Positions 32,603 to 48,196 of a stretch of 60,154 bases of DNA are shown piece after piece. This DNA comes from Candidatus Hydrogenedentota bacterium (GTDB taxonomy: Bacteria; Hydrogenedentota; Hydrogenedentia; Hydrogenedentales; JAGMZX01), in contig JAKQEQ010000027.1 of the NCBI GenBank assembly GCA_029556545.1, positions 1-60,154 on the forward strand, read 5' to 3'. The position numbers were made by a program, and so were the translations under genes. The stretch's first letter is position 1; each line of letters opens with the position of its first letter. The notes below the pieces were generated by a model. It worked only from the letters and a program-made list of their open reading frames with translations, did no database searches and was not told where the DNA came from.

Positions 32603-34486
32603 TCACGCCTCGATCGCGGCGGCGAGGCGGCCGCCGTGCGCTTCGAGCAGGCGGGCCGCGGCGTCGGCGTCAAGTCCCTTGCGCGCCATTAAGACGGCCA
32701 CGGCGATCTGGTCGTCGGCTTCGCACAGCAGCGTGGCCGCGCGGTCCGGCGATACCCCGCCCAACGCGGCGATGATACGCTCGGCGCGGGCGCGCAGTTT
32801 CGCATTGGCGGGGCGCATACGTACCATCCGTCCCGCGTAGACGTAGCCGGCAAGGGCCATCGCACCGGTCGAGACCATGTTCAGCACGAGTTTCGTCGCC
32901 GTGCCCGCTTTCAGGCGCGTTGACCCCTCAAGCACCTCCACGCCGGTATTCAGGCAGATGACCATGTCCACCGCCGTGTCCGCCGCGATATGGGGATTAC
33001 AGCACAGCAGTACGGTCCGCGCGCCCGCTTGGCGCGCGCGTTCGAGCGCGCCCCGCACGTAGGGCGTCGTGCCGGAGGCCGCGATGCCTACCACGAGGTC
33101 TCGCGGCGACGGCGACAGCGTTGCCAAGTCGTCGGCGCCCCGCGCGGCATCGTCCTCCGCGCCCTCGACGCTGTCCCGGAGCGCGCGGTCGCCGCCCGCG
33201 ATAATGGCCGTGACGCGATCGGAGGCAACACCGAATGTCGGCGGGCATTCCGACGCATCGAGCACGCCGAGCCGTCCGCTGGTCCCCGCGCCGACGTAAA
33301 TGATCCGGCCGCCGGACTGGAGGGCACGCGCCGCGGCGTCAATAGCGGCGGCAACGGCGGCATGTTGTTCGCCAATGGCGCGGACCGCTTCGAGGTCCGC
33401 CGCGTGCATGGCGGCGACGATTTCCGCGGACGTCATGCGGTCGATGGTGATGCAGGAATCCGGGGACTGCTCGGTGGGCGGCAGCGAACCGTGGCATGGG
33501 CGTCCCGCCCATGACTGACCACGGGCACGATGTCCGTGCCACGGCGCGCCTTCGTTTGTGGCTGCAGTATCGACCAACCAGTCAGGGCTGGTATTTAGTC
33601 GGACTAACTCGAAGACAGCGCGGTGGCCGCGTAGCGCGGGAACCTGGACCCGAAACGGTACGTGGTGGGCGAGTGCGCGCTCGAAGGCGGATCGGTACAA
33701 GCCACTGTGCTCGAACAGGCCGCCGATCAAGAACGCGGGCGTACCCTCAGGCAAGTCGAGCCGGCGGCGCACTGCCGCCGCCATCGCCGCCAGCCGTTCC
33801 GCCTGGGCCTCGACGCACCGCAGGGCCACGCTATCGCCCGATTCCGCGCAACGCGCGACGGCCGCCGCGAGTCTGGCAAGTTCCGCCTTCGCCGCACTGT
33901 TGGCCCAAGCGGTGAGGGACTGGAAATCCGCGACGCCCACCGCCTCCGGCAAAGCGCCCACGAGCGTCGTGGCCGGTCCCGTGCCGTCCACGGCGCGAGC
34001 CGCGTCGCGCAACGCGCTCGCCGCCACCTGATAAGCGCTGCCTTCCTCGCCGAAGGGAACACCCCGCCCTCCCGCCTCGGCTTCGCGCCCGTCCGCCGCT
34101 TGCGCGGCCACTTTCGAGCCTGTCCCCGCGATGGCGAGCATGGCGGGCCCTCCCCCGCTGTTCACGGCTAGAATGGGGTGAAAATCATCGCACACGAGCG
34201 CACGATGCACCGCCGGCAGGCGGCAAAGCGCCCGCGCCAGTTTCGCCCGCCATTCGTTCGAGAAGAGCCCCGCGACGCCCGCCGCGACGATGACCTCGAC
34301 GTCCGCATACGGGTCCTTCAGCAGGCGAACAAGAAACCCCTGGAACTCGGCAAGCGTGCTCTCGAGTCCGCAGGCCACCGGATTGCACGGACCACCCTCG
34401 GCTTCGCCGAGCAGTGCGCCCTCGGGGGTGTACAGCCCCGCGACGGATTTCGTCGCGCCCCCTTCCACGGCCAGCACAAGCGTCAT
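32603..34486 (-). CDS. Fusion: BadF/BcrA-type N-acetylglucosamine (sugar) kinase + MurNAc-6-phosphate etherase
   Basis: A 627-residue two-domain enzyme. Residues 1 to about 315 form an ASKHA kinase of the BadF/BcrAD type (VEGGATKSVAGL, AGVAGLFSN, AIAGTGSKVA). The C-terminal approximately 295 residues are a complete MurQ etherase (TEQSPDSCITIDRM, YVGAGTSGRLGVLDASECPP, GIAASGTTPYVRGAL, GSTRLKAGTATKLVLNM). MurQ converts MurNAc-6-phosphate to GlcNAc-6-phosphate and D-lactate; an N-terminal amino-sugar kinase would supply the phosphorylated substrate. The linker is encoded by a 56-bp dispersed repeat (33489-33544) read in frame as WHGHRARGQSWAGRPCHG. I chose ATG 34486 (MTLVLAV); ATG 34498 is possible and would overlap the GH1 stop. 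Confidence 0.88.
   Translation of the reverse strand: MTLVLAVEGGATKSVAGLYTPEGALLGEAEGGPCNPVACGLESTLAEFQGFLVRLLKDPYADVEVIVAAGVAGLFSNEWRAKLARALCRLPAVHRALVCDDFHPILAVNSGGGPAMLAIAGTGSKVAAQAADGREAEAGGRGVPFGEEGSAYQVAASALRDAARAVDGTGPATTLVGALPEAVGVADFQSLTAWANSAAKAELARLAAAVARCAESGDSVALRCVEAQAERLAAMAAAVRRRLDLPEGTPAFLIGGLFEHSGLYRSAFERALAHHVPFRVQVPALRGHRAVFELVRLNTSPDWLVDTAATNEGAPWHGHRARGQSWAGRPCHGSLPPTEQSPDSCITIDRMTSAEIVAAMHAADLEAVRAIGEQHAAVAAAIDAAARALQSGGRIIYVGAGTSGRLGVLDASECPPTFGVASDRVTAIIAGGDRALRDSVEGAEDDAARGADDLATLSPSPRDLVVGIAASGTTPYVRGALERARQAGARTVLLCCNPHIAADTAVDMVICLNTGVEVLEGSTRLKAGTATKLVLNMVSTGAMALAGYVYAGRMVRMRPANAKLRARAERIIAALGGVSPDRAATLLCEADDQIAVAVLMARKGLDADAAARLLEAHGGRLAAAIEA
33489..33544. repeat. 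Dispersed 56-bp three-way-junction element inside the kinase-MurQ gene
   Basis: Outer arms CCGTGGCA and TGCCACGG are perfectly complementary. Inside lie two hairpins, CATGGGCG tcc CGCCCATG and CACGG...CCGTG. The element is in frame between the two domains of the fusion protein. The same CATGGGCG/CACGGGCG hairpin family appears at 23272-23290. Confidence 0.85.
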
Positions 34487-34490
34487 GGCG

Positions 34491-35762
34491 TCAGGCATCC
34501 TCCGGGATCGGCGGTTGCCATCCGGGACAGAACCGCGACAGAGTCCCCATGCGAATCTCGCCGGTGCGGCAGATATCCTGAAAGAGGAACGCGCTGCCGT
34601 TGGGCGTGCGCGCCTGGGTTTCCCAGTCCACGTGGATGAGGCCGTGGCGCGCTTGAAGCCCGAGCGCCCACTCGAAGCCGTCGAGCAGTGTATCGTGGAA
34701 GTAGCCGCGCACGTCCGCCCCTTGCTCGATGGCGTGCTGCAATACCCACAAGTGTTCGAGCAGATACGCGCACCGTTCGCCGTCCTGTCGCACCGCTACG
34801 CCGTTGCCCGTGATGATCAGCGGGACGTTGTAGCGGCCCATTTCTTCGAGTATTTCGTGCAGACCGCGCGGGTCCGCCTGCGTGCGGTCCAACGCCACGG
34901 GGCGGCCCGCGCCATCCACGGGCCGCGCGAATTGCCGCCGAATCTCGAACGGGGAAAATCGTACCGATTGCCGGCCGTAATAGGACACGCCTAGAAAGTC
35001 GTAATGTGTGTCGCTGCCGTGTTCGACTCGGAGCATTTCGAGGAAACGGTGGTGACGCCGTTCCCGTACGCGCCGGGCGGCCCGCGCATCCCAGGGGCTT
35101 TGGTCGTCCAGCGGCAGCATGACCCCGGTCCGCACCGAAACGCCTACCTGCGCATCGGTGCGAACGCCGTGCAGCGCGTGATAGGCCCGCGCGTGGGCTT
35201 GGGCCATGTTGCGCAACGCGCCGCCCACCCGGCCGCGCCCGCCCGGCCACGCGCCCTCGATGTGGCTCATCGCCAGGCGAAATTCCGGTTCGAGAATCGG
35301 AATCCACCAGCGGCATTTCTGGCCGAGCGCCTCAGCGACGCGGTCCACGTAGTGCTCGAAGTAAACCACGGCGCCGGACCCGCGCCAGCCGCCGGCCTCC
35401 GCGAACCAGACCGGTCGAGTCGTGTCGTGCAGCACGCAGACGGGTTCGATGCCTTCTCGTCGCAAGCAGTCAACAACGTTTACGTAATGTTGCATGGCTG
35501 CCTCGTCGAACACGTCGATGACCGGCTGAATTCGGCTCCATTCGAGCGAGATCAGGAGCGCATTCAAGCCGAGTTTGCGCGCGAGCGCGAAGTCCTCCTC
35601 ATAGCAATGGAAATGGTCCGCGGCCCGCACCGAGGTCGATCCGTCCGCAATGTGGCCGGGCCGCTGCTCCCAGCGCCACCAGTCATTGTCGAAGTTGCCG
35701 CCCTCGACCTTGTGCGCCGACACCGTCGCCCCCCAGAGAAACCCCTCGGGAAAGGTTTTCAC
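34491..35762 (-). CDS. GH1-family beta-glucosidase-like protein lacking the nucleophile (probable pseudoenzyme)
   Basis: A 423-residue TIM-barrel protein clearly of family GH1 (FPEGFLWGATVSAHKVEGG, DNDWWRWEQ, LISLEWSRIQP, YFEHYVDRV, GFEWALG, GLIHVDWETQARTPNGSA). The nucleophile word ITENG reads ITGNG: Gly319, codon GGC at 34806-34808, replaces Glu. Three further active-site positions also differ: Gln to Lys18 in SAHKVEGG, His to Asp113 in LHDTTRP, and Asn to Leu157 before the retained acid/base Glu158 (LEP). The reading frame is intact. The start is GTG 35762, with AGGAGA eight bases upstream, rather than ATG 35795. It lies upstream of and abuts the kinase-MurQ gene. It is probably a binding or regulatory protein, or it uses another mechanism. 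Confidence 0.85.
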   Translation of the reverse strand: MKTFPEGFLWGATVSAHKVEGGNFDNDWWRWEQRPGHIADGSTSVRAADHFHCYEEDFALARKLGLNALLISLEWSRIQPVIDVFDEAAMQHYVNVVDCLRREGIEPVCVLHDTTRPVWFAEAGGWRGSGAVVYFEHYVDRVAEALGQKCRWWIPILEPEFRLAMSHIEGAWPGGRGRVGGALRNMAQAHARAYHALHGVRTDAQVGVSVRTGVMLPLDDQSPWDARAARRVRERRHHRFLEMLRVEHGSDTHYDFLGVSYYGRQSVRFSPFEIRRQFARPVDGAGRPVALDRTQADPRGLHEILEEMGRYNVPLIITGNGVAVRQDGERCAYLLEHLWVLQHAIEQGADVRGYFHDTLLDGFEWALGLQARHGLIHVDWETQARTPNGSAFLFQDICRTGEIRMGTLSRFCPGWQPPIPEDA

Positions 35763-35928: not shown

Positions 35929-38900
35929 TCAGCGGCCCAGGACCTCGTAGAGGTCCACGCCGCCCGGCGCGAAGCCGTCTTCGCTGCCTTCCTGGACGCG
36001 GTAGGCGCGCCCGGGCGCGTTGTACATCTGCACGGCCCGCAGCAACTCGGACAGGTCAATGCCCCAGTTCTGCAAGAGGTAGTCGCTGTTATGGGGCGCA
36101 CATTCCGACCCGCCGGGACCGGGAGCGTAGCCGTCTTCCGTGCCCTCGGCGCAATGGAAGCCCGGTGAATTGTAAAGCTGGATCACCCGCAGAATCTCGG
36201 GCAACGAGATGACCCAGTCGCGGTCGGTGTCCATCGTATGGCACCACGCGGGGCCGTAGCCCTCCGCCAGCGGCGTGGCCAATAGCGGCGTCTCCTGCTC
36301 GGGGCCGTCGGCAACGCGATAGAGCGCCTGCCCCGTGAGCACGTAGACGCCCTGCGCGTCCGCTGGCGCGATCATCGCGTACACGACCACGGCCGGAAAC
36401 GTCGGCATGTCGAGCCATGCAAACTCGACACGGCCCGCGGCGCCCGGCGCGGGCGCGCTCACGGCGCCGCCGGTTTCAAGCACCTCGCCCACGGTCCAGC
36501 CCTCGGGCAGCGTCTGAACCACGCCGAGCGCCGCCACGGGCAGGCTGCGCGGCGCGCGCAACACGACACGCACGAGCACGCGCCCACCGGGCACGTAGAA
36601 GCCGTTGCCGATGACATCCTGGTGCATCACGAGTTCGGGGCGCGGCCCCGGTCCGCCGCTGAAGTCGTCCGCAAGCAGCGCGGCCTCGATTTCGTCAAGT
36701 GTGATGACGCCGTCGCCGTTGAGATCGAGGGCCGCGAAGATACGCGGTAGTTCGGGGATATCGACCGGCAGCGCCTGTGTCAATTCCTCGAGCGAGATGC
36801 CGCCGTCGCCATCGACATCCAGCAGCGGGAACAAGTCGCGCAGCAACTGCAGCACGTGACGATACGGCGGCAAACCGGGCTCCTCATGCTCGCCCTCGCC
36901 TTCGCCTTCACTCGGCGGCGGCGGGGGCGGCGGCAACGTTCCGAGGTCGTGGCAGTCGATGACCCCGTCGCCATTGACATCGATCCGCGCAAAAATCTCG
37001 GGCGTCATGTAGCTCGATACTTCTTCATACTCGATTACGCCGTTGCCGTTTAGATCGATCCCGGCAAGGGGATCAAGGGCCATCAAAGCCGTTACAAGGT
37101 TATGCACTTCATCCCAATCGAGCACGCCGTCGCCGTTTAGGTCCAGCGCGGTCCAGTGCCATGTCTCGATGTCGGGGTCGTAGACCTGCATTTCCTCGAG
37201 CGAGACGACGCCGTCCTCGTTGAGATCAAGCATCAACCAGAATATGTAACGCCACACGATCGGATCGAGCGGTATTGGGCACGGCGCTTCACCTTCGCCC
37301 TCGCCTTCGCCCGGCGGGGGCGGCGGCGTTCCAAGGTCGTAGCAGTCAATCACGCCGTCGCCGTTCAAATCGACCAGCGCAAAGGTATCCGCCGAAATGT
37401 ACTCGCTGACTTCCGCGTACTCTATGACGCCGTTCCCGTTCAGGTCGATCATCCCGAGCAGGTCAAGGCCCTGCAACAGCGGCAATAGCGACACGGCCTC
37501 GTTCCACGTGAGCAGGCCATCGCCGTTGAGGTCCACAAACGACCACAGCGAGGCGTCCAAATCCGCATAGTAGACTTGCACTTCTTCCAGCGATATGGTG
37601 CCGTCGCTGTTCGCGTCCACGATGGGCCACAACACCTGAAGCCAGACCATCGGGTCCGGCGGAATCGGGCAGGGGCCTCCGCCCTCGCCTTCACCTTCAC
37701 CTTCACCTTCGCCTTCACCCTCACCTTCGCCCGGCGGGGGCGGCGGCAGCGTTCCGAGGTCGTGGCAGTCTATGACCCCATCGCTGTTCACGTCGACCAG
37801 CGCGAACGTGTCCGCCGAGATATACTCGGCAACCTCAGCATATTCGACGATGCCGTTCCCGTTCAGGTCGATCATCCCGAGCAGATCAAGACCCTGCAAC
37901 AGGGGCAATAGCGACATCGCCTCGTCCCACGTAAGCAGGCCGTCGCCGTTCAAGTCCACGAACGACCACAACGAAGCGTCCAAATCCGCATAGTAGACTT
38001 GCACTTCTTCCAGCGATATGCCGCCGTCGCCGTTGGCATCCACGATGGGCCACAGTACCTGAAGCCAGACCACGGGGTCCGCCGGGATCGGGCACGGGGG
38101 TTCGCCTTCTCCCTCACCCTCGCCGGGACCATCGCAATCCGCAACAACCACCTCCAATTCGGCGATGGTAATCAGCCCGTCCCCGTCCAAGTCCAATCGC
38201 TCGAAATACACGATCGGCTCGGGGAACGGCGCGAAACCGGTCTTCATCAGGACCGGCCACTCCGCCACTTCGTCACGCGAGAGGCCGCCGTCGTGGTTCA
38301 CATCCAGTTCCGGGAACAGGTGGAGCGTCATTCGTGCGACATGGCACAGGAGCGAATCCTCGCCCTCGCCTTCGCCTTCTCCTTCTCCGGACGGCGGTTC
38401 GATGCCTTCGAGGTCGCCGCAGTCGATCACGCCGTTGCCATTATGGTCGAGCTGCGCGAACTGCTCCGGCGTAATATACGCGGCTACTTCCGCGTACTCG
38501 ATCAACCCGTTGCCGTTCGTGTCAATCCACGAGAGCGGCGGCGGCGGATAGATCAGAATGACCACCGGCGGAATCAGCGCCAGAATTTCCGCCCGGCTGA
38601 GCAGCCCGTCGCCATTGGTGTCCGCGGCGTCGAACAGCGCCGGATCGAGATCGGGATAGACGGCCAGCGCCTCCGCGAGGGAGATGCCGCCGTCGCCGTT
38701 CACGTCCACCACCGGCCATACAAGTTCAAGAAGAACCGCCGGATCGCCCGGGAGCGGGCACGGCGGCTCACCCTCCCCTTCACCCTCGCCTTCGCCGGGC
38801 GGCGGCGGCTCGATGCCTTCAAGGTCGCCGCAATCAATCACGCCGTTGCCGTTGCGATCGAGTTGCGCGAATTGCGCCGCCGTTACATACTCGGCGACTT

Positions 38901-39705
38901 CGTCGTATTCGATGATCCCGTTGCCGTTCGTGTCGATCAGCCAGAGAATCCCCGAACCGGGCGTCCCGGGACCGGGCACGATCAGGATGACAAGATAATC
39001 CAGGAGCGCCAGAATCTCCGGTCGGGTCAACAGGCCATCATCGTTGGCGTCGGCCAGATCAAAGTATGCGGGGTCCAAATCGGGATACACGGCTTGCGCT
39101 TCCGCGAGGCTGATCCCGCCGTCCCCGTTCGTGTCGATGACCGGCCACACGAGTTCCAGCAACAGCGCCGGGTCGTCCGGCAGCGGGCACGGCTGCTCGC
39201 CTTCTCCTTCGCCCTCGCCTTCGCCCTCGCCCTCCCCTTCACCGGGCGGCACGCTCTGCCCCACGTCCTCGCAGTCAATCACCCCGTTCCCGTTCTTGTC
39301 CAATTGGGCGAACTGAGCGGGACTGACGTATGCGCTTACTTCCGAGTACTCGATAACGCCGTTCCCGTTCGTATCGATGTACGAGAGGAAATCCGCCGGC
39401 AGCAGACCCAGGAACGGCCGTAGTTCGGCCAGGGTCACCCGCCCGTCATGGTTCGCATCTACATAGGCGAACAATTCCTCGAGCGAAATCGGGATTCCCG
39501 GAATACTGTTGTAAAGCGGCCGGATTTCCGCCATCGAGAGACCGCCGTCGCCGTTCGTGTCGAACAACGGCCACAGGGCCTCGACCAGCAGTTCCGGGTC
39601 CGCCGGCAACGGGCACGGCGCCGCGGCGGGCGCGGTCTGCCCGGACAACGCGGCCACGCACACTGCCGTCACAATCCAACCTACGCTAAATCGTACGACT
39701 CGCAT
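35929..39705 (-). CDS. Giant secreted multi-EF-hand surface protein with (Gly-Glu)n linkers and C-terminal SELLR domain
   Basis: A 1258-residue exported protein: signal peptide (MRVVRFSVGWIVTAVCVAAL), then eight modules. Six have four EF-type calcium loops each (DTNGDGGISLAE, DANDDGLLTRPE, DTNGNGIIEYDE, DRNGNGVIDCGD in module 2) and two have two loops, 28 loops in all. Modules 5 and 6 are nearly identical, a recent duplication. Each full module has two cysteines (PCP and IDC), probably a disulfide. Seven linkers are (GE)n. After module 8 comes an approximately 110-residue beta domain (LPEGWTVGEVLETGG), then a tandem domain: DTDRDWVISLPEILRVIQLY, EGTEDGYAPG, then NWGIDLSELLRAVQMY and EGSEDGFAPG. 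GGGAG stands ten bases before ATG 39705; the TTG at 39714 is less likely. Expected to be calcium-bound and extracellular. Confidence 0.85.
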   Translation of the reverse strand: MRVVRFSVGWIVTAVCVAALSGQTAPAAAPCPLPADPELLVEALWPLFDTNGDGGLSMAEIRPLYNSIPGIPISLEELFAYVDANHDGRVTLAELRPFLGLLPADFLSYIDTNGNGVIEYSEVSAYVSPAQFAQLDKNGNGVIDCEDVGQSVPPGEGEGEGEGEGEGEGEQPCPLPDDPALLLELVWPVIDTNGDGGISLAEAQAVYPDLDPAYFDLADANDDGLLTRPEILALLDYLVILIVPGPGTPGSGILWLIDTNGNGIIEYDEVAEYVTAAQFAQLDRNGNGVIDCGDLEGIEPPPPGEGEGEGEGEPPCPLPGDPAVLLELVWPVVDVNGDGGISLAEALAVYPDLDPALFDAADTNGDGLLSRAEILALIPPVVILIYPPPPLSWIDTNGNGLIEYAEVAAYITPEQFAQLDHNGNGVIDCGDLEGIEPPSGEGEGEGEGEDSLLCHVARMTLHLFPELDVNHDGGLSRDEVAEWPVLMKTGFAPFPEPIVYFERLDLDGDGLITIAELEVVVADCDGPGEGEGEGEPPCPIPADPVVWLQVLWPIVDANGDGGISLEEVQVYYADLDASLWSFVDLNGDGLLTWDEAMSLLPLLQGLDLLGMIDLNGNGIVEYAEVAEYISADTFALVDVNSDGVIDCHDLGTLPPPPPGEGEGEGEGEGEGEGEGGGPCPIPPDPMVWLQVLWPIVDANSDGTISLEEVQVYYADLDASLWSFVDLNGDGLLTWNEAVSLLPLLQGLDLLGMIDLNGNGVIEYAEVSEYISADTFALVDLNGDGVIDCYDLGTPPPPPGEGEGEGEAPCPIPLDPIVWRYIFWLMLDLNEDGVVSLEEMQVYDPDIETWHWTALDLNGDGVLDWDEVHNLVTALMALDPLAGIDLNGNGVIEYEEVSSYMTPEIFARIDVNGDGVIDCHDLGTLPPPPPPPSEGEGEGEHEEPGLPPYRHVLQLLRDLFPLLDVDGDGGISLEELTQALPVDIPELPRIFAALDLNGDGVITLDEIEAALLADDFSGGPGPRPELVMHQDVIGNGFYVPGGRVLVRVVLRAPRSLPVAALGVVQTLPEGWTVGEVLETGGAVSAPAPGAAGRVEFAWLDMPTFPAVVVYAMIAPADAQGVYVLTGQALYRVADGPEQETPLLATPLAEGYGPAWCHTMDTDRDWVISLPEILRVIQLYNSPGFHCAEGTEDGYAPGPGGSECAPHNSDYLLQNWGIDLSELLRAVQMYNAPGRAYRVQEGSEDGFAPGGVDLYEVLGR

Positions 39706-39818
39706 AGCACGCAAACTCCCACTCGTTCGGAGCTCAACTTCGCCCCCCGTCTTTATCCACCGGACCGCGTATCCCGCGATCCCTCAAGATCATCATTCCC
39801 TGGCGACGGTAAGAACGG

Positions 39819-40358
39819 TCAACAGGCACACGGATCCCACGCGGGCGGAGCGTTTGGCGTCAACCGATAGTAGTAGCGTTCCTCTTTGGCCGAAAAAATC
39901 GACAGAGGAACGCCGCGGGCTCGGAGCGCCGCGGTTGCCACACGCTTCCCCAGCGTGATGAGAACATTGGAACGTATGCTTGCCGGGACCCCCGGTTCGT
40001 GAAAGCGCATGAGCGCCAGGACCGCCGCTTCCCCGCGTCTCTCCGGGACAGGAGGCACGCGCGCGTCCGACGCCTGCGCCTGTTCAAGAATCCGCTGGAA
40101 ATCCCGAATATCGACTTGGCCGTCCCCGTTTACATCGGCCATTGCCGCGCCATTCCCCCCGCGAAGAACCGCCGCGATGACAAACTGCAAATCCCGCACG
40201 TCCACGATGCGGTCGCCGTTCGCGTCGCCCTCGGCGGCGACCACCGTCGGCAATAGGGGCACCGACCCCGCCGCAACGGTCAGCGCGACGAGACACGGGA
40301 AGACACACCGGATACGCTCCACCGGCACGCTCACCCTGTAGCGCGTCATGGGATTCAC
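39819..40358 (-). CDS. Secreted dockerin type I-containing protein
   Basis: A 179-residue protein with a signal peptide (CVFPCLVALTVAAGSVPLLP) and a dockerin type I module directly after it: GDANGDRIVDVRDLQFVIAA and ADVNGDGQVDIRDFQRILEQ, the two calcium-binding F-hand repeats. The C-terminal 90 residues are helical and unrecognised (ALMRFHEPGVPASIRSNVLI, ending in CAC). Dockerins bind cohesin domains on scaffold proteins; cohesin-like proteins are encoded 1.7-4 kb away. The start is GTG 40358 with AGAGGGA about eight bases upstream. It is divergent from the second dockerin protein, with its own promoter. Confidence 0.82.
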   Translation of the reverse strand: MNPMTRYRVSVPVERIRCVFPCLVALTVAAGSVPLLPTVVAAEGDANGDRIVDVRDLQFVIAAVLRGGNGAAMADVNGDGQVDIRDFQRILEQAQASDARVPPVPERRGEAAVLALMRFHEPGVPASIRSNVLITLGKRVATAALRARGVPLSIFSAKEERYYYRLTPNAPPAWDPCAC

Positions 40359-40377
40359 ATACTTTCCCTCTTTCTAA

Positions 40378-40406
40378 ACGGTAGCACAAGCCGCCGTAGT
40401 TGTCAA
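40378..40406 (-). promoter_or_regulatory. Promoter of the small dockerin gene
   Basis: On the minus strand TTGACA (40401-40406) is 17 bases from TACCGT (40378-40383), with TGC before it as an extended -10. The predicted start is about 13 bases before GTG 40358. Confidence 0.55.
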
Positions 40407-40557
40407 TGGCGGCGTCAGATTCTTGCGAATAGTGATAATTCTAAATAATTGCCCAACCGAAGAAGTGCTGCGAGCGCCTTGACCGTCCACATTCGCCACG
40501 AATCCCCCGGTATCTCTCCAATTGCCTATTTGCACGCATAGCGCCCCCGCGAAACCA

Positions 40558-40586
40558 TTGCAAATAGACCGGACGCGTGATACAGT
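40558..40586 (+). promoter_or_regulatory. Possible promoter of the dockerin/TSP3 gene
   Basis: TTGCAA (40558-40563) and TACAGT (40581-40586) are 17 bases apart, with TG one base before the -10. The leader to ATG 40768 would be about 175 bases. The rest of the 409-base divergent gap shows no gene. Confidence 0.45.
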
Positions 40587-40767
40587 GATGATGAAAGAAG
40601 AAAGGCCGCCGTTTGCGGGCAGCGCCAAGTCTGGGCTCCACATCCCGTGGGGCGGGGGTGCGATGTCCGTGACGAGATTTCTTTCTTCGTTAAGAGGTGG
40701 CTCACTGCAATGGGAGACACTCGATTCTAACCGTGCGCGATCAAAGGAACACAGGAGCAGGAGTGAC

Positions 40768-42060
40768 ATGAACGGACAACGAAGGAACCTTTGGGGGCGA
40801 CCCCGGCGTTGGGGACCGGCGGCGGCGCTATGTTGCTGCGCGCTGCTGGCCCACGGAGACGGCGGCCTGCCCGGAGACGTGAACCTCGACGGCGTAGTCA
40901 ACGTGCTGGACGTTCAGGGTTCGATCAACATGGCGTTGGGCGCCGCCCCGGAAGCGGCGGAAGCGGACGCTGACCTGAATGCGTCCGTGGACGTGCGCGA
41001 CGTGCAGGCCATTATCAGCACCGCGCTCGGCACGGGCGGACTCGTCCAGCCGGTGGCCGGCATGTTTCATCCCGCCGACCTGCCGCCAGGCGCGCAACTC
41101 CTGGCGTTGTCGCTCGATGGACGGCGCGAGGACGCGTTGCTCGACCCCGAGACGGGCGCCTTCTCGCTGATCCTGGGCGTGCGGTCCGCTTGGACCTTGG
41201 CATTGTTTGCCGGGAACGGCGACGAGACCCGGACCGCCGCAAGCGTGGCGTTCCCCTTGGTATACGGTTACTCGACCGCCCTGCCGTTGCCCGATCTGGC
41301 TGCGGGCGGTCCGCTGGACATCGGCGTGCTCGATGTCGCCTGGGGCGCGCTCGCCGGTGGCGACCTGCGCAGCCTGCTCGCCGGTATCGCCCCGCCCCTG
41401 GACACGACGGACGCCGATAACGACGGCATACCGGACTTGCTGGACGCTTTGCTCGCGCCGTTGCTTGAAAGCCCGACGAGTCTGGGCATCAGTTTCCCGG
41501 CGGACCTCGGCGCCGCGGCCCTCGAGCAACTTCTTGCCGATTGTATCGGGAACGCGCTGCCGCAAGCGATTGAACCGGACCTCACGGGTATCGAGATCGC
41601 CGGCGTACCGGCGTTCCTCGAACCAGCATGGTTGTGTCTTGAGCAGAGCCTTTTCTCGTGGATCGATTCGAGTATAATCCCGCTTCCCGACGAACTCATC
41701 GCGATGTACACCAACTTGGCGATGGACTGGTTGCGGCAGGGTATCGGCCCTTGGCTCGACCAACTGGACCGTCCGGAACTCGAGGATGCGAACGGCAACC
41801 ACGTGCCGGATTTCCTCGAACCGTGGCTTTGCGGCCCCGCGCCGTCCTCCCTCTGTGTATTGGACCAAGACGCCAACGGCATTCCGGATTTCTGTGAGGA
41901 TGCAAGCGGCAACGGCCTTCCCAACCTCTTCGACCCGGACTCGCACACGCCCGATGACTGGGACGGCGACGGCGTGCCGAACGATATGGATATCGACGCC
42001 GACAATGACGGCGTCCCCAATTACGCGGATGCGAACCCGTCTGACCCCAACGTCTTCTGA
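40768..42060 (+). CDS. Secreted protein with N-terminal dockerin and C-terminal thrombospondin type 3-like calcium repeats
   Basis: A 430-residue exported protein. After the signal segment (PAAALCCCALLAHGDG) comes a dockerin-like pair, GDVNLDGVVNVLDVQGSINM and ADADLNASVDVRDVQAIIST. The second repeat lacks one of the usual metal ligands. A middle region of about 230 residues is beta-rich then helical and unrecognised. The C-terminal 100 residues carry thrombospondin-3-like repeats (ELEDANGNHVPDFLE, DQDANGIPDFCED, DWDGDGVPNDMDIDADNDG). GGAGTGAC precedes ATG 40768. It is the first of four same-strand genes (40768-44618) with cohesin-like proteins, which suggests joint assembly. Confidence 0.82.
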   Translation: MNGQRRNLWGRPRRWGPAAALCCCALLAHGDGGLPGDVNLDGVVNVLDVQGSINMALGAAPEAAEADADLNASVDVRDVQAIISTALGTGGLVQPVAGMFHPADLPPGAQLLALSLDGRREDALLDPETGAFSLILGVRSAWTLALFAGNGDETRTAASVAFPLVYGYSTALPLPDLAAGGPLDIGVLDVAWGALAGGDLRSLLAGIAPPLDTTDADNDGIPDLLDALLAPLLESPTSLGISFPADLGAAALEQLLADCIGNALPQAIEPDLTGIEIAGVPAFLEPAWLCLEQSLFSWIDSSIIPLPDELIAMYTNLAMDWLRQGIGPWLDQLDRPELEDANGNHVPDFLEPWLCGPAPSSLCVLDQDANGIPDFCEDASGNGLPNLFDPDSHTPDDWDGDGVPNDMDIDADNDGVPNYADANPSDPNVF

Positions 42061-42093
42061 GCAGCGGGAACGCGAAGGAGCAATCGATCGGGT

Positions 42094-42858
42094 ATGAACA
42101 CGAAGGCGGCAAAGATGCTGATGGTCGCGGCGGCGTTGGCTGGCGCGGCCCATGCAGCCACGTTGCGCCTCGAAACGATCGCTGCTGACCCCGCAGCCAT
42201 GATGCCGCTACACCTTGCCTCGGCGGCGGGCGAAGCCGTCGCCGCCATGCAGTTCGATTTCGTGTTCTCCGCGTCGCTGTTTTCGGTCACGGGCGTCGCC
42301 GCGGGTCCCGCCGCAACCGCGGCGGGCAAGGAGGTCCAGTCCAGTGTGGTCGTGCCGGGCCGCGTCCGCTGTCTGGTGGCGGGATTGAACCGCGAGGCGA
42401 TCCCCGAAGGCGTCGTAGTGAATTTCGAGTTGACCGTTGCGCCCGCCGCGCCCGACGGCGCGTTTCTCGTGCGCATCGAAAACGCCATTCTGGCCGACCC
42501 CGACGCCGGGGCCGTGCCAAGTCAGACGGTGAACGGCGTCATCCTGATCGGGCCAGTGCATCCGCATTCGGCTGACACCGATGTCAACTGGCGCATTTCG
42601 TTAAGCGAACTGCTCCGGGTCATCCAACTTTTCGCCTCGCGCGAATACCACTGTGCCGAGGGCACGGAAGACGGTTTCGCGGGCGGGCCCGGGCCGCGCG
42701 ATTGCCCGCCCCATGACAGCGACTACGGCGTCACGCAAAACTGGAGGATTGGTCTATCGGAACTGCTGCGTCTAATCCAGTTCTTCAACTCGCGCGATTA
42801 CCACGTCGATACCAGCGCCGAGGACGGCTTTGCCCTCGGCCCGGTTCCCCTGGAATGA
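42094..42858 (+). CDS. Cohesin-like secreted protein with C-terminal tandem SELLR domain
   Basis: A 254-residue exported protein. The signal is MLMVAAALAGAAHA. Residues 23-150 fit a cohesin fold by pattern: AAMQFDFVFSASLFSVTGVA, then GPAATAAGKEV, RVRCLVAGLNREAIPEG, and late PDGAFLVRIENAILADP. The last 95 residues are the same tandem domain that ends the EF-hand protein: HSADTDVNWRISLSELLRVI, GTEDGF, CPPHDSDY and NWRIGLSELLRLIQFF. Its stop overlaps the next cohesin-like gene by four bases (ATGA). The cohesin call is by pattern only. Confidence 0.75.
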   Translation: MNTKAAKMLMVAAALAGAAHAATLRLETIAADPAAMMPLHLASAAGEAVAAMQFDFVFSASLFSVTGVAAGPAATAAGKEVQSSVVVPGRVRCLVAGLNREAIPEGVVVNFELTVAPAAPDGAFLVRIENAILADPDAGAVPSQTVNGVILIGPVHPHSADTDVNWRISLSELLRVIQLFASREYHCAEGTEDGFAGGPGPRDCPPHDSDYGVTQNWRIGLSELLRLIQFFNSRDYHVDTSAEDGFALGPVPLE

Positions 42859-43910
42859 CCGTCATGTCTCCGCGCCGGCAACGACTAACGCCTCGCCGAC
42901 CGCGTACAGGCGGCATGGCGGCGCTGGCGGTCGCAGCGGCCTTATGCGGGGGCGCGGTCGCCTGGGGCGCGGTACTCACGGCGCACCCTGAACCCGCGCC
43001 GGACGGCACACTCGTTGTGTCCGTGGCGTTGCAGCCGGGCGGAAACGAGGAAATCGCCGGGCTGCAATTCGACCTCGAACTCGGCGGCGGCTATGCCGTA
43101 GCGGCGGTCGCGCCCGGCGACGCCGCGGCAGGGGCGGGCAAGGAAGTAGCGTATGGCCTGCGCGGCGACGTGTTGACCGTGCTCGTAGCGGGCTTCAATC
43201 AGAACGCCGTCGCGCCGGGCACGGTGGCGACCGTGTATTTGACGCCCGCCGCGGAAGTCACTGCGGGAAGCGCGCTGGCGCTGGCCAATGTGGTGCTGTC
43301 CGACCCGAGCGGGCAGGCCGTGCCCGTAACCCTCGGGCGCGTAATGAAAGACGCCGGAACGCCGGAGGACCCGCTCGCCATCGAGGAAGGCCCCTTCAAC
43401 ACCTCACGGCAAGACGCTGTGCCGGACGCGGACGTCGCGCGGGACCAGGGACGCCGCCCGAGTGCGTTCGCGGCTTACGGCGACCCCGAAGCGAACGTTT
43501 CCGACGGGTCGTCGTATGCCCTTCGTCCACTCGGTGCACTGCGTCCATCGTCTTCAAGCGCCGGCCCGAGTGCAACTCGGAAGCGGATGCCGATACTTGC
43601 CGGTGAAGCCGGGGCGCGAGACGCCACGCCGTCGCCAGGCTCTCGTGGTGTGCCCGTCCCGGCAGCTGACTACGCGGAACCCACCGCCGTCGGAACCCAA
43701 AACGCGTCGAACAAGCATCTCGCCGCGTTGGGCGCGACCGACCACGCGCCGGCGACCAGTCCGTTCATCCCCTCCGCCGCGGACACGGATGCGCGGGGAC
43801 CGATCGCGACGCGGAAACCGTCGTGGCGCAATCCGGTCCTGTTCGTGCTTTCGCTCTGCGGCATTCTCGCTGCCGGAGCGGCGCATCGCCGCCTGTTTCG
43901 GAGGGAATGA
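42855..43910 (+). CDS. Cohesin-like protein with proline/serine stalk and C-terminal membrane anchor
   Basis: A 351-residue protein with a signal (MAALAVAAALCGGAVAWGAV) and a cohesin-like domain (GLQFDLELGGGYAVAAV, GDAAAGAGKEVAYG, TVLVAGFNQNAVAPGTVATV, LANVVLSDPSGQAVPVTLG). A long low-complexity stalk of about 150 residues follows. It ends with a membrane helix (NPVLFVLSLCGILAAGAA) and a basic tail HRRLFRRE. This is the layout of a surface-anchored receptor domain. It starts within the stop of the previous gene and is followed six bases later by the third cohesin-like gene. Confidence 0.75.
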   Translation: MTVMSPRRQRLTPRRPRTGGMAALAVAAALCGGAVAWGAVLTAHPEPAPDGTLVVSVALQPGGNEEIAGLQFDLELGGGYAVAAVAPGDAAAGAGKEVAYGLRGDVLTVLVAGFNQNAVAPGTVATVYLTPAAEVTAGSALALANVVLSDPSGQAVPVTLGRVMKDAGTPEDPLAIEEGPFNTSRQDAVPDADVARDQGRRPSAFAAYGDPEANVSDGSSYALRPLGALRPSSSSAGPSATRKRMPILAGEAGARDATPSPGSRGVPVPAADYAEPTAVGTQNASNKHLAALGATDHAPATSPFIPSAADTDARGPIATRKPSWRNPVLFVLSLCGILAAGAAHRRLFRRE

Positions 43911-43916
43911 AACCCG

Positions 43917-44618
43917 ATGCCGCGAACACGTGGGGACCTTGTCGTCTGGATGGGGTTTTTCGCGGCATTGTGGTCAAGCGCCTGGGCGGCGGCGGCAACT
44001 CTCGACGTAGGCGCCGCGCAGGCGCATCCGAACGACAGCGGCGTCGAAGTGGCCGTAACCTTCGCCGCACAGCCGGGCGACAACGTGGCGGGAGTGCAAT
44101 TTGACCTGCTTTTCTCCGAAGCGGTCGCGGCGCTGACCAACGTGCGCCCCGGTCCCGCCGCCGTCGACGCGGGCAAGAGTGTGGCCTTTAACCGCCTCGC
44201 CGCCGGGCGCTGCCGCGTCATTGTCGCGGGACTCAACCAGAACGTGATCGCGGACGGCGTCCTCGCGGTGCTCGTGTTCAATGTCGCCGCCGCGGCCCCG
44301 AACGGCCCCCAGCCCCTCAACCTCGATGGCTTGGTCATGTCCGACCCGAACGGCCTCAACGTCCCCGCCACCGGCAACCCCGGAACCCTCGAAGTGATCG
44401 GCGGCGTGACAGACGGAGACACCTGCAACGCCTGCGGCTGCGCACGCGGCGCGCTGGACACACACCCCCCGGGAGCCCTTGGCAATGCGGCGCTTCTCGC
44501 CGCGACGGTCCTGATCATCCTATCGATGGCCGCCGCAGCTTCGCGCACCGCCCGCTACAGGGTGTGGGGCGTCCCGCCCCACACCCATCGGGGGCAAGAT
44601 GCCCCCGCGCCTGGATAG
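43917..44618 (+). CDS. Cohesin-like protein with C-terminal membrane helix; 3' end formed by a repeat element
   Basis: A 233-residue protein with a signal peptide (MGFFAALWSSAWAAAATL) and a cohesin-like domain (GVQFDLLFSEAVAAL, GPAAVDAGKSVAFN, RVIVAGLNQNVIADGVLAVL, LDGLVMSDPNGLNVP). A Cys-rich word (CNACGC) and a membrane helix (ALLAATVLIILSMAAAA) follow. The last 20 codons are read from a dispersed two-hairpin repeat (44560-44607), giving the terminal YRVWGVPPHTHRGQDAPAPG. The native end was probably near ASRTAR and the repeat supplied the stop codon. It is third of the tandem cohesin-like set. Confidence 0.74.
   Translation: MPRTRGDLVVWMGFFAALWSSAWAAAATLDVGAAQAHPNDSGVEVAVTFAAQPGDNVAGVQFDLLFSEAVAALTNVRPGPAAVDAGKSVAFNRLAAGRCRVIVAGLNQNVIADGVLAVLVFNVAAAAPNGPQPLNLDGLVMSDPNGLNVPATGNPGTLEVIGGVTDGDTCNACGCARGALDTHPPGALGNAALLAATVLIILSMAAAASRTARYRVWGVPPHTHRGQDAPAPG
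44560..44607. repeat. Two-hairpin element at the 3' end of the third cohesin-like gene
   Basis: A perfect 12-bp stem GGGTGTGGGGCG/CGCCCCACACCC with loop TCC is followed by CGGGGGC/GCCCCCG with loop AAGAT. The GGGCGTCCCGCCC core is shared with 33495-33513 and 56247-56261. Confidence 0.82.
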
Positions 44619-44658: not shown

Positions 44659-45042
44659 CTAAAGGAACGTCACGCGTATTTCACCCTTCGCGATACCCCG
44701 GAAATCCTGGTCCATCGTTACGATTTCGAGGCGAAACTCCTGAGCAACGAGATATTGATATGCGTCGTCGAAATCAAGTCCCCACTGGGCTTTGACCGCT
44801 CCCAGTTGCGCATAATCATCCGTTGGCAAAGACAAGATCTCGATGCTCCCAAGCACCTCCTCGATGAAGAGTCGGAAAATGTCCTCGCGATTATGGCGGA
44901 ACAGGATTACACCGATAGAGTGCAGGGAGAAGTCGGAGATAAAGACAGCGCCGTGATTCTCCTCAAGGAACCGGCGGCATGTGTCCTGCTTCTCCTGTCC
45001 CAGAAGGATTTCCAGGAAGACGTTCGTGTCCACCAAGAACAT
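44659..45042 (-). CDS. PIN-domain ribonuclease toxin (VapC type)
   Basis: A 127-residue PIN-domain protein expected to cut RNA and be neutralised by the antitoxin encoded just upstream. The first catalytic Asp is in FLVDTNVFLE, followed by acidic residues in GLDFDDAYQYLVAQ and VTMDQDFRGI. The length is normal. GGAG stands upstream of ATG 45042. It is transcribed after the antitoxin with a six-base gap, the usual order. Confidence 0.9.
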   Translation of the reverse strand: MFLVDTNVFLEILLGQEKQDTCRRFLEENHGAVFISDFSLHSIGVILFRHNREDIFRLFIEEVLGSIEILSLPTDDYAQLGAVKAQWGLDFDDAYQYLVAQEFRLEIVTMDQDFRGIAKGEIRVTFL

Positions 45043-45489: not shown

Positions 45490-48087
45490 TCAACAGCGCA
45501 AACAAATGGCCTTCGGCAGAATCTCGAAGGTCGCGGGTAGGCGGCCGGGCGCTTCGCCGTCAACGTCGAGCAGGACCGGTCCGGCGCCCCGAATCGGCAG
45601 GGCGGTGATCTTGCGCCCGCGCAAGGCGGTGACCTTGTTGTAGCGCAGGTGTTTGCCCTTGTAGACGGATCGCGACTTGAGCAGCAGTTCGATGGGGCCC
45701 ACGTCCGCGATGATGATGACGTCGAAGAGGCCGTCGTCGGGTTGCGCGTTTGGGGCGACCTTCATGCCGCCGCCGAAGTACTTTCCGTTCGCCACGGCCA
45801 CCGTTGTGGTGTTGACGATCTGATCGAAGGCCTCGTCCACGCGCAGGCGCACGTGCTGACGCCGATACGTGAAGAGCGCCTTGAACATGCCCCACTGGAA
45901 CGCGAATTTGCCGCCGAGCCGCTTCGATAAGCCGAGCCGGTTCACGACGCGGTCCGCCTCGCCGCTCAGGCCGAAGCTGGCGATGTTGTCAAAGTATCGC
46001 ACCATTTCCTCGCCCGTCGAATCGTCCCGGTAGGTGAGTTTGCCCACGTCGATGCGGCGGATTTCGCCCATGGCGAAGCGCGCGATTTGCGCGTCGATGC
46101 TCTCCGGCAGCAGAAACGTGCGGCGGAAATCGCCGCCGGTGCCGCTGGCGATTACCGCGAGCACCGCGTCCGGGTTGATCAACTCCCCCTTCTCGAAGAA
46201 GCCGTTGACCACCTCGTTGACGGTCCCGTCACCGCCGACGGCGATGATCTGGTCCACGCCGTCCTTCAGCGCCTGCCGGGTCAGGTGTTTGGCGGCCATC
46301 GGCCCGTCGGTGAAGACGTAATCGACCGGGCCGAGGACGGCGGTGAGCTTCGCGAGGGTCACGGGCCAATTCGCGCCGGTGCGGTCGCCCATCGCGTGGG
46401 GGTTGACGATGGCGCGCGTACGCGATGACGGCAGGAACTTCGCATTCGCGCGCTCGATTTGCGCGGCCCGCTGCTGCTTGTCCCAACCCAACTCGCGCGC
46501 CACCAGGTCCGCTGCCTTGCCGATCGCCTCGTCGCCCGGCGAGCCGAGCGTGCCGAGGCCCGTCCTGCGGAACAGCACGTCGTCGAGCATGAGCGCCATT
46601 TCCTCGCGCACGGCGTAAACCACCTCCGCCCCGATGTCGGGAAATCGCTCGCAGAGGCGTTCCGCGAGCGCGGGGTCCGATTCCGCCAGCGCGATCACGT
46701 CCGAAAGGCGGCTGCCGTAATTGCGCGCCAGGTTCTCGATCACTTCCGGCGGCCACGCCGCGAATTTCTCCGCGCACTCCTGGATGAACTGCGCGTATTG
46801 CCCGACGTCGCCGCCGTGCGTCGGCGTGGTCGCGGTGGCGCAGGGCGTCTCCGGCAGGCCGAGTTTCTGCGTGGTCAGGTCGACCACTTGTTCGGCGACG
46901 CTGCGCGCCGTGGTCCACTTCCCGCCGATAGCGGTGATGACGCCCTTGATGTTCTCCTGCGCCTCGTGATCGTAAATTTCCGCCGCGCGACTGGCGTTGT
47001 AGCTGTCCGGTCCTTCATCGTCGTCGGACTCCTCCTCCGTTCCGGCGCTCTCCACAATCGGGCGCAATCCGCCGTAGAAGTGCAGCACGTCTTCGCGCTT
47101 GAGTTTCGCTGCGGGGTAGCCCTTATTGATCACGTCGATGAATTCGAGGATGTCTTTCTCCGTGACGTGAAAGGCGTCCGGGGCGCCTTTGAACACCGTG
47201 TCGGTCGTGCCGATGAGGCTGTGTCCGCGCCACGGCAGAATGAAGAAGTGCCCGCCGTCGAACGGCACGGCGATCGCGTTTCCCTGCGTCAAAGGCCGCG
47301 TCAGGACGTGGATGCCCTTCGATCGAATCAGTTGCCGGCTCGGGCGGCCCTCCGCCAATGTCGCCATGAGCAGGTCCGCCCACGGCCCCGCCGCGTTCAC
47401 CGTCATGCGCCCGCGCACGCTGAAGTCGCCGAAACCCGTGGCGACGTCGTGCGCGCGCACGCCGACGACGCGGTCTTCCTCCTTGAGAAATTGATGAACC
47501 TCCGCGTAGTTCGCCGCGCACGCGCCGAGCGCCGCCGCACTCTGGATGCACTCGACGGCAAGCCGCTCGGGCGAATACATCTGGTAGTCATGAAACATCA
47601 TCGCGCCGGAGAGGTCCTCGATTTCGAGATCGGGTTCAAGCGCGACAACCTCTTCGCGGCTCAGGTGCTTGTGCGATGGGATAGCCTTGTCCGGGTCCTC
47701 CAGCCGATTGCGGTCAAAGGCCAGCCAGTCGTAGGCCATCAGGCCCACCGCAAGCTTGATGCGCCCGCGGATACGCTTCCTGCCCATCGTCGGCATGAGA
47801 AACGTCAACGGATAAACCATGTGCGGCGCGATGTTCGACCAGACCCGCCGCTCACGCAGCGACTCGCGCACCAGGCCGATCTCGAAGTTCTGGAGATAGC
47901 GCAGCCCGCCGTGGATCAGCTTCGACGACGCGGACGACGTCGCGCTCGCGAAATCCCCCTTGTCCAGCAGCGCCACACTCAACCCGCGCATCGCCGCGTC
48001 CCGCGCGATACACGCGCCCGTAATCCCGCCGCCCACAATCACCACGTCGAAGACCTTCTCCGCCATTGCGGCCAAGTCACGCTTCAT
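45490..48087 (-). CDS. Fusion: glycerol-3-phosphate dehydrogenase (GlpD type) + diacylglycerol/lipid kinase
   Basis: An 865-residue protein. Residues 1 to about 550 are FAD-dependent GlpD (VVIVGGGITGACIARDAAMR, SSKLIHGGLRYL, GGHFFILPWRGHSLIGTTDT, GKWTTARSVAEQVVD). It oxidises glycerol 3-phosphate to dihydroxyacetone phosphate at the membrane with electrons to quinone. The C-terminal approximately 315 residues are a DagK/YegS-like lipid kinase (AVGGDGTVNEVVNGF, VIASGTGGDFRRTF, ANGKYFGGGMKVAPNAQPDD, DGLFDV). The boundary is near nucleotide 46438. The frame is open throughout. ATG 48087 has GGGAG eight bases upstream; the longer frame to 48183 lacks support. The fusion would join glycerol-phosphate use to phospholipid precursor recycling. 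Confidence 0.9.
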   Translation of the reverse strand: MKRDLAAMAEKVFDVVIVGGGITGACIARDAAMRGLSVALLDKGDFASATSSASSKLIHGGLRYLQNFEIGLVRESLRERRVWSNIAPHMVYPLTFLMPTMGRKRIRGRIKLAVGLMAYDWLAFDRNRLEDPDKAIPSHKHLSREEVVALEPDLEIEDLSGAMMFHDYQMYSPERLAVECIQSAAALGACAANYAEVHQFLKEEDRVVGVRAHDVATGFGDFSVRGRMTVNAAGPWADLLMATLAEGRPSRQLIRSKGIHVLTRPLTQGNAIAVPFDGGHFFILPWRGHSLIGTTDTVFKGAPDAFHVTEKDILEFIDVINKGYPAAKLKREDVLHFYGGLRPIVESAGTEEESDDDEGPDSYNASRAAEIYDHEAQENIKGVITAIGGKWTTARSVAEQVVDLTTQKLGLPETPCATATTPTHGGDVGQYAQFIQECAEKFAAWPPEVIENLARNYGSRLSDVIALAESDPALAERLCERFPDIGAEVVYAVREEMALMLDDVLFRRTGLGTLGSPGDEAIGKAADLVARELGWDKQQRAAQIERANAKFLPSSRTRAIVNPHAMGDRTGANWPVTLAKLTAVLGPVDYVFTDGPMAAKHLTRQALKDGVDQIIAVGGDGTVNEVVNGFFEKGELINPDAVLAVIASGTGGDFRRTFLLPESIDAQIARFAMGEIRRIDVGKLTYRDDSTGEEMVRYFDNIASFGLSGEADRVVNRLGLSKRLGGKFAFQWGMFKALFTYRRQHVRLRVDEAFDQIVNTTTVAVANGKYFGGGMKVAPNAQPDDGLFDVIIIADVGPIELLLKSRSVYKGKHLRYNKVTALRGRKITALPIRGAGPVLLDVDGEAPGRLPATFEILPKAICLRC

Positions 48088-48167
48088 TGGGGGATCTCCC
48101 GAGACCACCGTTGCTTGCGCCGCACTATAGTACACAATCGCCCGCCATTGCACGGCGGCTGCGGGTC

Positions 48168-48196
48168 TTGCCATTTTTCGCATTTTGCGCTACAAT
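48168..48196 (+). promoter_or_regulatory. Sigma70-type promoter for the zinc-finger paralogue
   Basis: TTGCCA (48168-48173) and TACAAT (48191-48196) are separated by 17 bases. The predicted start near 48203 gives a leader of about 65 bases before ATG 48269. The divergent fusion gene begins at 48087, so the 181-base gap is a shared regulatory region. Confidence 0.68.

Follow-up and report, generated by a model that had tools for sequence, protein, structure and literature searches.

Cohesin-dockerin pairs are among the strongest protein-protein bonds known, and are known mainly from cellulosomes. Non-cellulosomal cohesin-dockerin systems have been described in archaea (Archaeoglobus and ANME), with cohesin and dockerin located within a single chain in the case of ANME (PMC9012536), and in Candidatus Stygibacter (Cloacimonadota) dockerins are carried by exported proteins, among them peptidases of the C25 and S8 families (PMC8542988). 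In this study, we analysed a locus at positions 35929-44618 of a 60,154-nucleotide window (the whole stretch of DNA examined) from a Candidatus Hydrogenedentota bacterium, the genome of which comprises 6.1 Mb on 195 contigs. Similar to the Archaeoglobus, ANME and Stygibacter systems, cohesins and dockerins are present here without a cellulosome and dockerins are borne by exported proteins; unlike in these systems, however, most of the candidate clients carry not a Pfam dockerin but a duplicated module, here termed SELLR. In contrast to a multi-cohesin scaffoldin, the locus encodes a conserved run of single-cohesin proteins, most of which are membrane-tethered. Tethered cohesins, dockerin-bearing enzymes and chains that combine a cohesin with a docking module are also features of the clostridial anchoring and adaptor scaffoldins, from which the present proteins differ in possessing one cohesin each, in having a membrane segment rather than SLH or sortase attachment, and in being accompanied by proteases and repeat proteins rather than cellulases, with no CBM seen.

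In the literature searched, which largely excluded subscription journals, no prior account of cohesins, dockerins or SELLR in Hydrogenedentota was found apart from incidental co-mentions. Four features appear to be new: SELLR itself, the number of its copies, its recurrent occurrence in one chain with cohesins, and the conserved row of tethered proteins with a single cohesin each. On balance, we lean towards interpreting the locus as part of a non-cellulosomal, membrane-tethered cohesin system, into which both classical dockerins and SELLR modules would plug.

Cohesin and dockerin genes of the locus

All six open reading frames (P0001 to P0006) that the initial annotation had placed side by side in this region were located at their positions. 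P0003 to P0006 are co-directional on the forward strand, spaced by 33 and 6 bases at two of their junctions and overlapping by 4 bases at another (calculated from the coordinates), and P0001 and P0002 are divergently oriented on the reverse strand. P0001 (35929-39714, reverse strand) encodes a secreted protein with a signal-like N terminus, EF-hand loops, GEGEGE linkers, one further domain and a C-terminal SELLR module (35962-36234, reverse strand; 62% identity to that of P0004). Its EF-hand array (36691-39561, reverse strand) contains exactly 28 loops of 12 residues, as had been counted previously, compared to a mean of 0.11 and a maximum of 2 in shuffled sequences, and matches the Pfam family EF-hand_1 at an E value of 2.6e-96.

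The two proteins to which dockerin pairs had been assigned both match Dockerin_1 and both contain the two tandem loop-helix repeats of Dockerin type I (PF00404). P0002 (39819-40358, reverse strand) is a short secreted protein, conserved beside cohesin clusters, with an N-terminal dockerin pair (40089-40229, reverse strand; E 2.2e-8, above the cut-off). P0003 (40768-42060, forward strand; ATG start at 40768) opens the cohesin run; its product is secreted and carries a dockerin pair at the N terminus (40870-41013, forward strand) and TSP3-like repeats at the C terminus, and the Dockerin_1 E value of 4.5e-4 falls just below the cut-off in hmmscan and just above it in the genome search. Additionally, the orthologues of P0002 and P0003 match a clade dockerin profile, which was composed of clade sequences and a few outside relatives.

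The remaining three genes, all on the forward strand, each encode a single cohesin. P0004 (42094-42858) is a secreted protein in which the cohesin domain (42172-42561) is followed by a C-terminal tandem SELLR module (42568-42843) with an EF-hand-like first loop, and which is devoid of a membrane anchor. P0005 (42855-43910) consists of a cohesin domain (42981-43337), a long Pro/Ser/Ala linker and a C-terminal membrane anchor, the hydropathy-derived membrane segment of which lies at 43830-43886, while P0006 (43917-44618) carries a cohesin domain (44010-44405) and a C-terminal membrane anchor containing Cys (membrane segment at 44487-44543 by hydropathy). Consistent with the basic-tailed anchors ascribed to two of the cohesin proteins, P0005 and P0006 both end in a hydrophobic segment followed by an Arg-containing tail. 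Similarly, the proposal that the third cohesin protein shares a tandem SELLR domain with the EF-hand protein was borne out, as within the locus this tandem is present on P0001 and P0004 only.

The cohesin assignment had originally been made on pattern, and profile searches placing the domains outside the cohesins had been set beforehand as its refutation; such searches instead returned cohesins. In hmmscan, Pfam Cohesin (PF00963) matched P0006 (E 2.6e-9) and P0004 (5e-7) above the cut-off and P0005 (0.16) below it, whereas a clade cohesin profile of 16 sequences, among which are P0004, P0005 and P0006 themselves, returned E values of 1.7e-49 for P0006, 6.9e-45 for P0004 and 2.8e-36 for P0005. 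All 18 matches of the clade profile in the PDB were to cohesins or cohesin-bearing cellulosome entries (best E 1.8e-7). Furthermore, the cohesin domain of P0004 was modelled by AlphaFold at a pLDDT of ~97 and matched solved cohesins at VIA Z scores of 12-18.6, the best matches being type I cohesins (5nrk_A: VIA Z 18.6, rmsd 1.7, 130 residues). The identities of the cohesins and dockerins at the locus can thus be regarded as virtually certain. Of the three sequence words previously described as common to all three cohesins, only VAGxN is indeed shared by all of them: GxQFD occurs in P0005 and P0006, with MQFD in P0004, and GPAAxxAGK in P0004 and P0006, with GDAAAGAGK in P0005.

The SELLR module and the proteins that carry it

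SELLR is a duplicated module of ~90 amino acids, each half of which comprises the motif D-x-N/D-x-D-x-x-I-x-L-x-E-L-L-R-x-I-Q-F-Y-N followed by a hairpin with TEDGY/F. The first half represents an EF-hand-type calcium loop plus helix, and its loop is canonical (D1 in 50/50, N/D3 in 41/50, D/N5 in 48/50, I/V8 in 51/51 and E12 in 51/51). The second loop is non-canonical and usually at least one residue longer; it retains acidic and hydrophobic positions and the Glu (D, W and E each in 51/51). Over 19 positions, the two halves share 74% identity, which fits the expectation for a duplicated docking module. In outline, SELLR resembles Dockerin type I (PF00404) in its putative duplicated loop-helix arrangement, its D1-N3-D5-I8-E12 first loop and its position at chain ends, while differing from it in length (~90 as opposed to ~60 residues), in the possession of conserved cysteines and TEDGY/F hairpins, in having Glu rather than Asp at loop position 12, and in its non-canonical second loop.

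In profile comparisons, SELLR aligned with EF-hand loops (probability 93) and, by hhalign, with dockerins (probability 47) over one loop only (19 columns), and no match to cohesins was obtained. The SELLR module of P0004 did not match PF00404 at E values up to 1, and the Dockerin_1 match in P0001 falls in the EF-hand array, outside SELLR. AlphaFold predicted a helix and a hairpin in both halves at low confidence (pLDDT 53, from an eight-sequence alignment). An assignment of SELLR to an existing Pfam, NCBIfam or PDB family was rejected as no credible match was obtained (by sequence in the case of the PDB), and no SELLR was found in IMG/VR viral contigs. Since SELLR is absent from Pfam and NCBIfam, a SELLR profile would name many proteins at once. 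SELLR is a probable new class of dockerin-like module.

A search of the genome with the P0004 tandem returned 110 matches, corresponding to ~105 ORFs after split matches were joined. Among 51 ORFs from 40 fetched regions, SELLR was C-terminal in 42, situated directly after the signal peptide in six, and internal or truncated in three, a placement at the chain C terminus or just after the signal peptide that is typical of dockerins. Nearly all SELLR ORFs with an intact start exhibit a signal-peptide-like N terminus (as judged by a crude test). The carriers include S15 and C25 peptidases, DUF3160, kelch and CHRD proteins, as well as PKD, LRR, BNR, P-domain and InlB-repeat proteins, and no cellulase was among the 25 commonest families listed for the approximately half of SELLR proteins that were scanned. 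Partial matches of 20 SELLR proteins to the Pfam family TrAA12 (~35-55 of 463 positions) were read as artefacts of the GEGEGE linkers. In dockerin-rich relatives, classical dockerins are located on PKD, beta-helix, InlB-repeat and TSP3 proteins; this occurrence of classical dockerins there and SELLR here on like classes of protein counts in favour of SELLR as a docking module. Relatives of families f10 and f11 possess a recurring trypsin-like peptidase of ~830-880 aa with a C-terminal SELLR (L213-L219 and others), which is present even in those genomes with one to five SELLR copies.

Association of SELLR with cohesins

Across the genomes compared, which are related so that counts are not independent, a cohesin and SELLR occur in one polypeptide in 26 of the 40 SELLR-bearing genomes, and do so in three architectures. 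The P0004-type cohesin-SELLR arrangement is present here and in G001, G006, G013, G015, G019, G020, G021, G025 and G040; a divergent cohesin-SELLR arrangement was identified in G006, G010, G014, G016, G022, G031, G034, G038, G041, G043, G045, G047, G051, G053, G055 and G057; and an N-terminal SELLR followed by a cohesin, often with PKD, is present in G000 (this genome; contig C116), G001 and G009. SELLR-fused cohesins are located in different parts of the cohesin tree; this tree and that of the SELLR modules both comprise too few columns for independent fusions to be counted. The f10 genomes were considered as examples of SELLR without cohesin, a notion that was rejected as most of them have a divergent cohesin fused to SELLR. 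As a separate observation, G027 (L233:3745-4569) and G035 (L234:2918-3679), which have one full SELLR each, encode cohesins with an N-terminal part similar to a single divergent SELLR/EF-hand unit (DRDGDWQISPEEA).

Three or more cohesins were present in 10 of the 11 SELLR-rich genomes (at least 18 SELLR) as opposed to 11 of the 49 others (Fisher 4e-5, uncorrected for relatedness), SELLR counts in the richest genomes being lower bounds. There is no overlap between the genomes rich in SELLR and those rich in dockerins: the six genomes with 10-64 Dockerin_1 matches gave zero SELLR matches, and the eleven SELLR-rich genomes have 0-8 Dockerin_1 matches each. Cohesin clusters also occur in f10 and f11 genomes with few SELLR (G014, G026, G034, G037, G047 and G049), indicating that the core function of the cluster is independent of SELLR, and G009 combines at least 36 SELLR with weak cohesins only.

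The EF-hand-type first loop and the repeated fusion to cohesins count in favour of SELLR as a docking module, and whether it docks to cohesin, as its genomic association and fusion suggest, is in our judgement an evenly balanced question. The fuller proposal, which we put forward a little more tentatively, is that SELLR constitutes a new docking class that binds the tethered Hydrogenedentota cohesins, that some 100 exported proteins may thereby be displayed on the surface, and that cohesin-SELLR chains may serve as adaptors or form head-to-tail polymers, in which case the whole would be a surface-display system of general use rather than a cellulosome. Against SELLR docking stand the lack of a PF00404 match, the one-loop alignment to dockerins, the non-canonical second loop and the pLDDT of 53, together with the lopsided proportion of ~105 clients to six cohesins.

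In a different reading, possible though distinctly less probable, SELLR serves as a tag for surface attachment or sorting that is recognised by a non-cohesin receptor or machine (an unknown one, or an analogue of those serving T9SS or exosortase tags), P0004 uses SELLR as its anchor, and the classical dockerins are the sole partners of the cohesins. In favour of this reading, SELLR and a membrane anchor are mutually exclusive on the P0004-type cohesins of the loci read; SELLR is also far more numerous than cohesins, some cohesin clusters lack SELLR and some genomes with SELLR have few cohesins, and SELLR has no dockerin profile match. However, sorting tags should be confined to the C terminus, whereas six of the 51 SELLR modules are N-terminal after a signal peptide, and a tag leaves both the repeated cohesin fusion and the EF-hand-type loop unexplained. 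With regard to T9SS, SprA_N was not found above the cut-off in 25 genomes, a search in which the control genomes were likewise negative.

In the docking model that we prefer, P0005 and P0006 would be fixed in the membrane by their C-terminal segments, with the cohesin presumably facing the outside of the cell, and secreted proteins bearing a docking module would bind these tethered cohesins. The first type of plug would be the classical dockerin, as carried by P0002, P0003 and at least two proteases encoded elsewhere (an M4 metalloprotease and a trypsin-like one), and the second would be SELLR, on ~105 ORFs including P0001, with cohesin as its putative partner. P0004 may function as an adaptor, inserting its SELLR, which would stand in for a membrane anchor, into a tethered cohesin while its own cohesin accepts another client. 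Docking is predicted to require calcium. If this holds throughout the phylum, a system with two docking modules, the second of them on some 100 proteins, would represent a testable route of surface building in an uncultured phylum, provide a likely role for numerous proteins that lack annotation, and possibly add a new orthogonal pair to the tools of protein engineering.

Conservation of the cohesin run and its candidate dockerin clients

A match to P0006 was detected in 42 of the 60 genomes searched, and related loci were found mostly in Candidatus Hydrogenedentes/Hydrogenedentota MAGs. The 20 loci read revealed a recurrent run of cohesin genes with three cohesin types, i.e. a cohesin with SELLR or a membrane anchor, a cohesin with a long low-complexity linker and a membrane anchor, and a cohesin with a membrane anchor after Cys or GEGEGE. 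Adjoining these runs are a short P0002-like dockerin protein and a P0003-like protein of ~440 aa with an N-terminal dockerin. The synteny comparison that had been suggested showed the full block (two dockerin proteins plus at least two cohesins) to be retained in ten genomes of five families (G000, G001, G006, G013, G015, G019, G025, G044, G047 and G049). The third cohesin of G044 has a classical dockerin pair at the place where the others have a membrane anchor. Related cohesins encoded by tandem genes were also observed in an Acidobacteria MAG (L095) and in Desulfofundulus (L100), and some of these cohesin chains themselves terminate in a classical dockerin pair.

Not every cohesin-fold domain found outside a cellulosome binds a partner, and the domains described here might accordingly be plain adhesion or structural domains that do not bind dockerins, with the dockerin-like and SELLR modules serving as calcium-stabilised spacers. 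This is improbable given that dockerin proteins and cohesins occur together in ten genomes of five families, and that the QFD and AGLNQN residues, which align with what we take to be the binding-face region of a cellulosomal cohesin, are nearly invariant among the cohesins in the alignment.

The initial annotation had stated that no catalytic enzyme carries a dockerin here, which is correct for the window and does not extend to the genome. Two large dockerin proteins of this genome are proteases, namely an M4 metalloprotease (G000:C167, L246:525-4373) and a trypsin-like protease (G000:C19, L247:355-2289), each with a C-terminal classical dockerin, and the M4 metalloprotease is conserved, dockerin included, in G014 and G049. 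That the locus is the scaffoldin cluster of a true cellulosome for the degradation of plant polysaccharides is highly improbable despite the resemblance of its cohesins to type I cellulosomal cohesins, as the known clients are proteases and surface-repeat proteins with no cellulase seen among those scanned, and as each chain has one cohesin, the six cohesin places in the genome being separate ORFs with no multi-cohesin scaffoldin. Cohesin and dockerin genes are co-encoded outside a cellulosome, and surface assembly through the classical dockerins is likely. The earlier reading of the locus as a surface complex other than a cellulosome is therefore supported by the confirmed cohesins and dockerins and by the conservation of the locus, with binding and its dependence on calcium as predicted properties.

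Three ORFs near the locus, all on the reverse strand, were also noted. Directly behind the cohesin genes, a VapC-like PIN-domain protein is encoded on the opposite strand (44659-45042; PF01850, 3.4e-16). In the ORF at 45490-48183, a glycerol-3-phosphate dehydrogenase (DAO, DAO_C) is fused with a lipid kinase of the diacylglycerol-kinase type (DAGK_cat, YegS_C). On the other side, an ORF at 32603-34498 combines an ATPase or sugar-kinase domain of the BadF/BcrAD type with a SIS domain resembling GKRP/MurQ, and perhaps represents a fused amino-sugar kinase and etherase.
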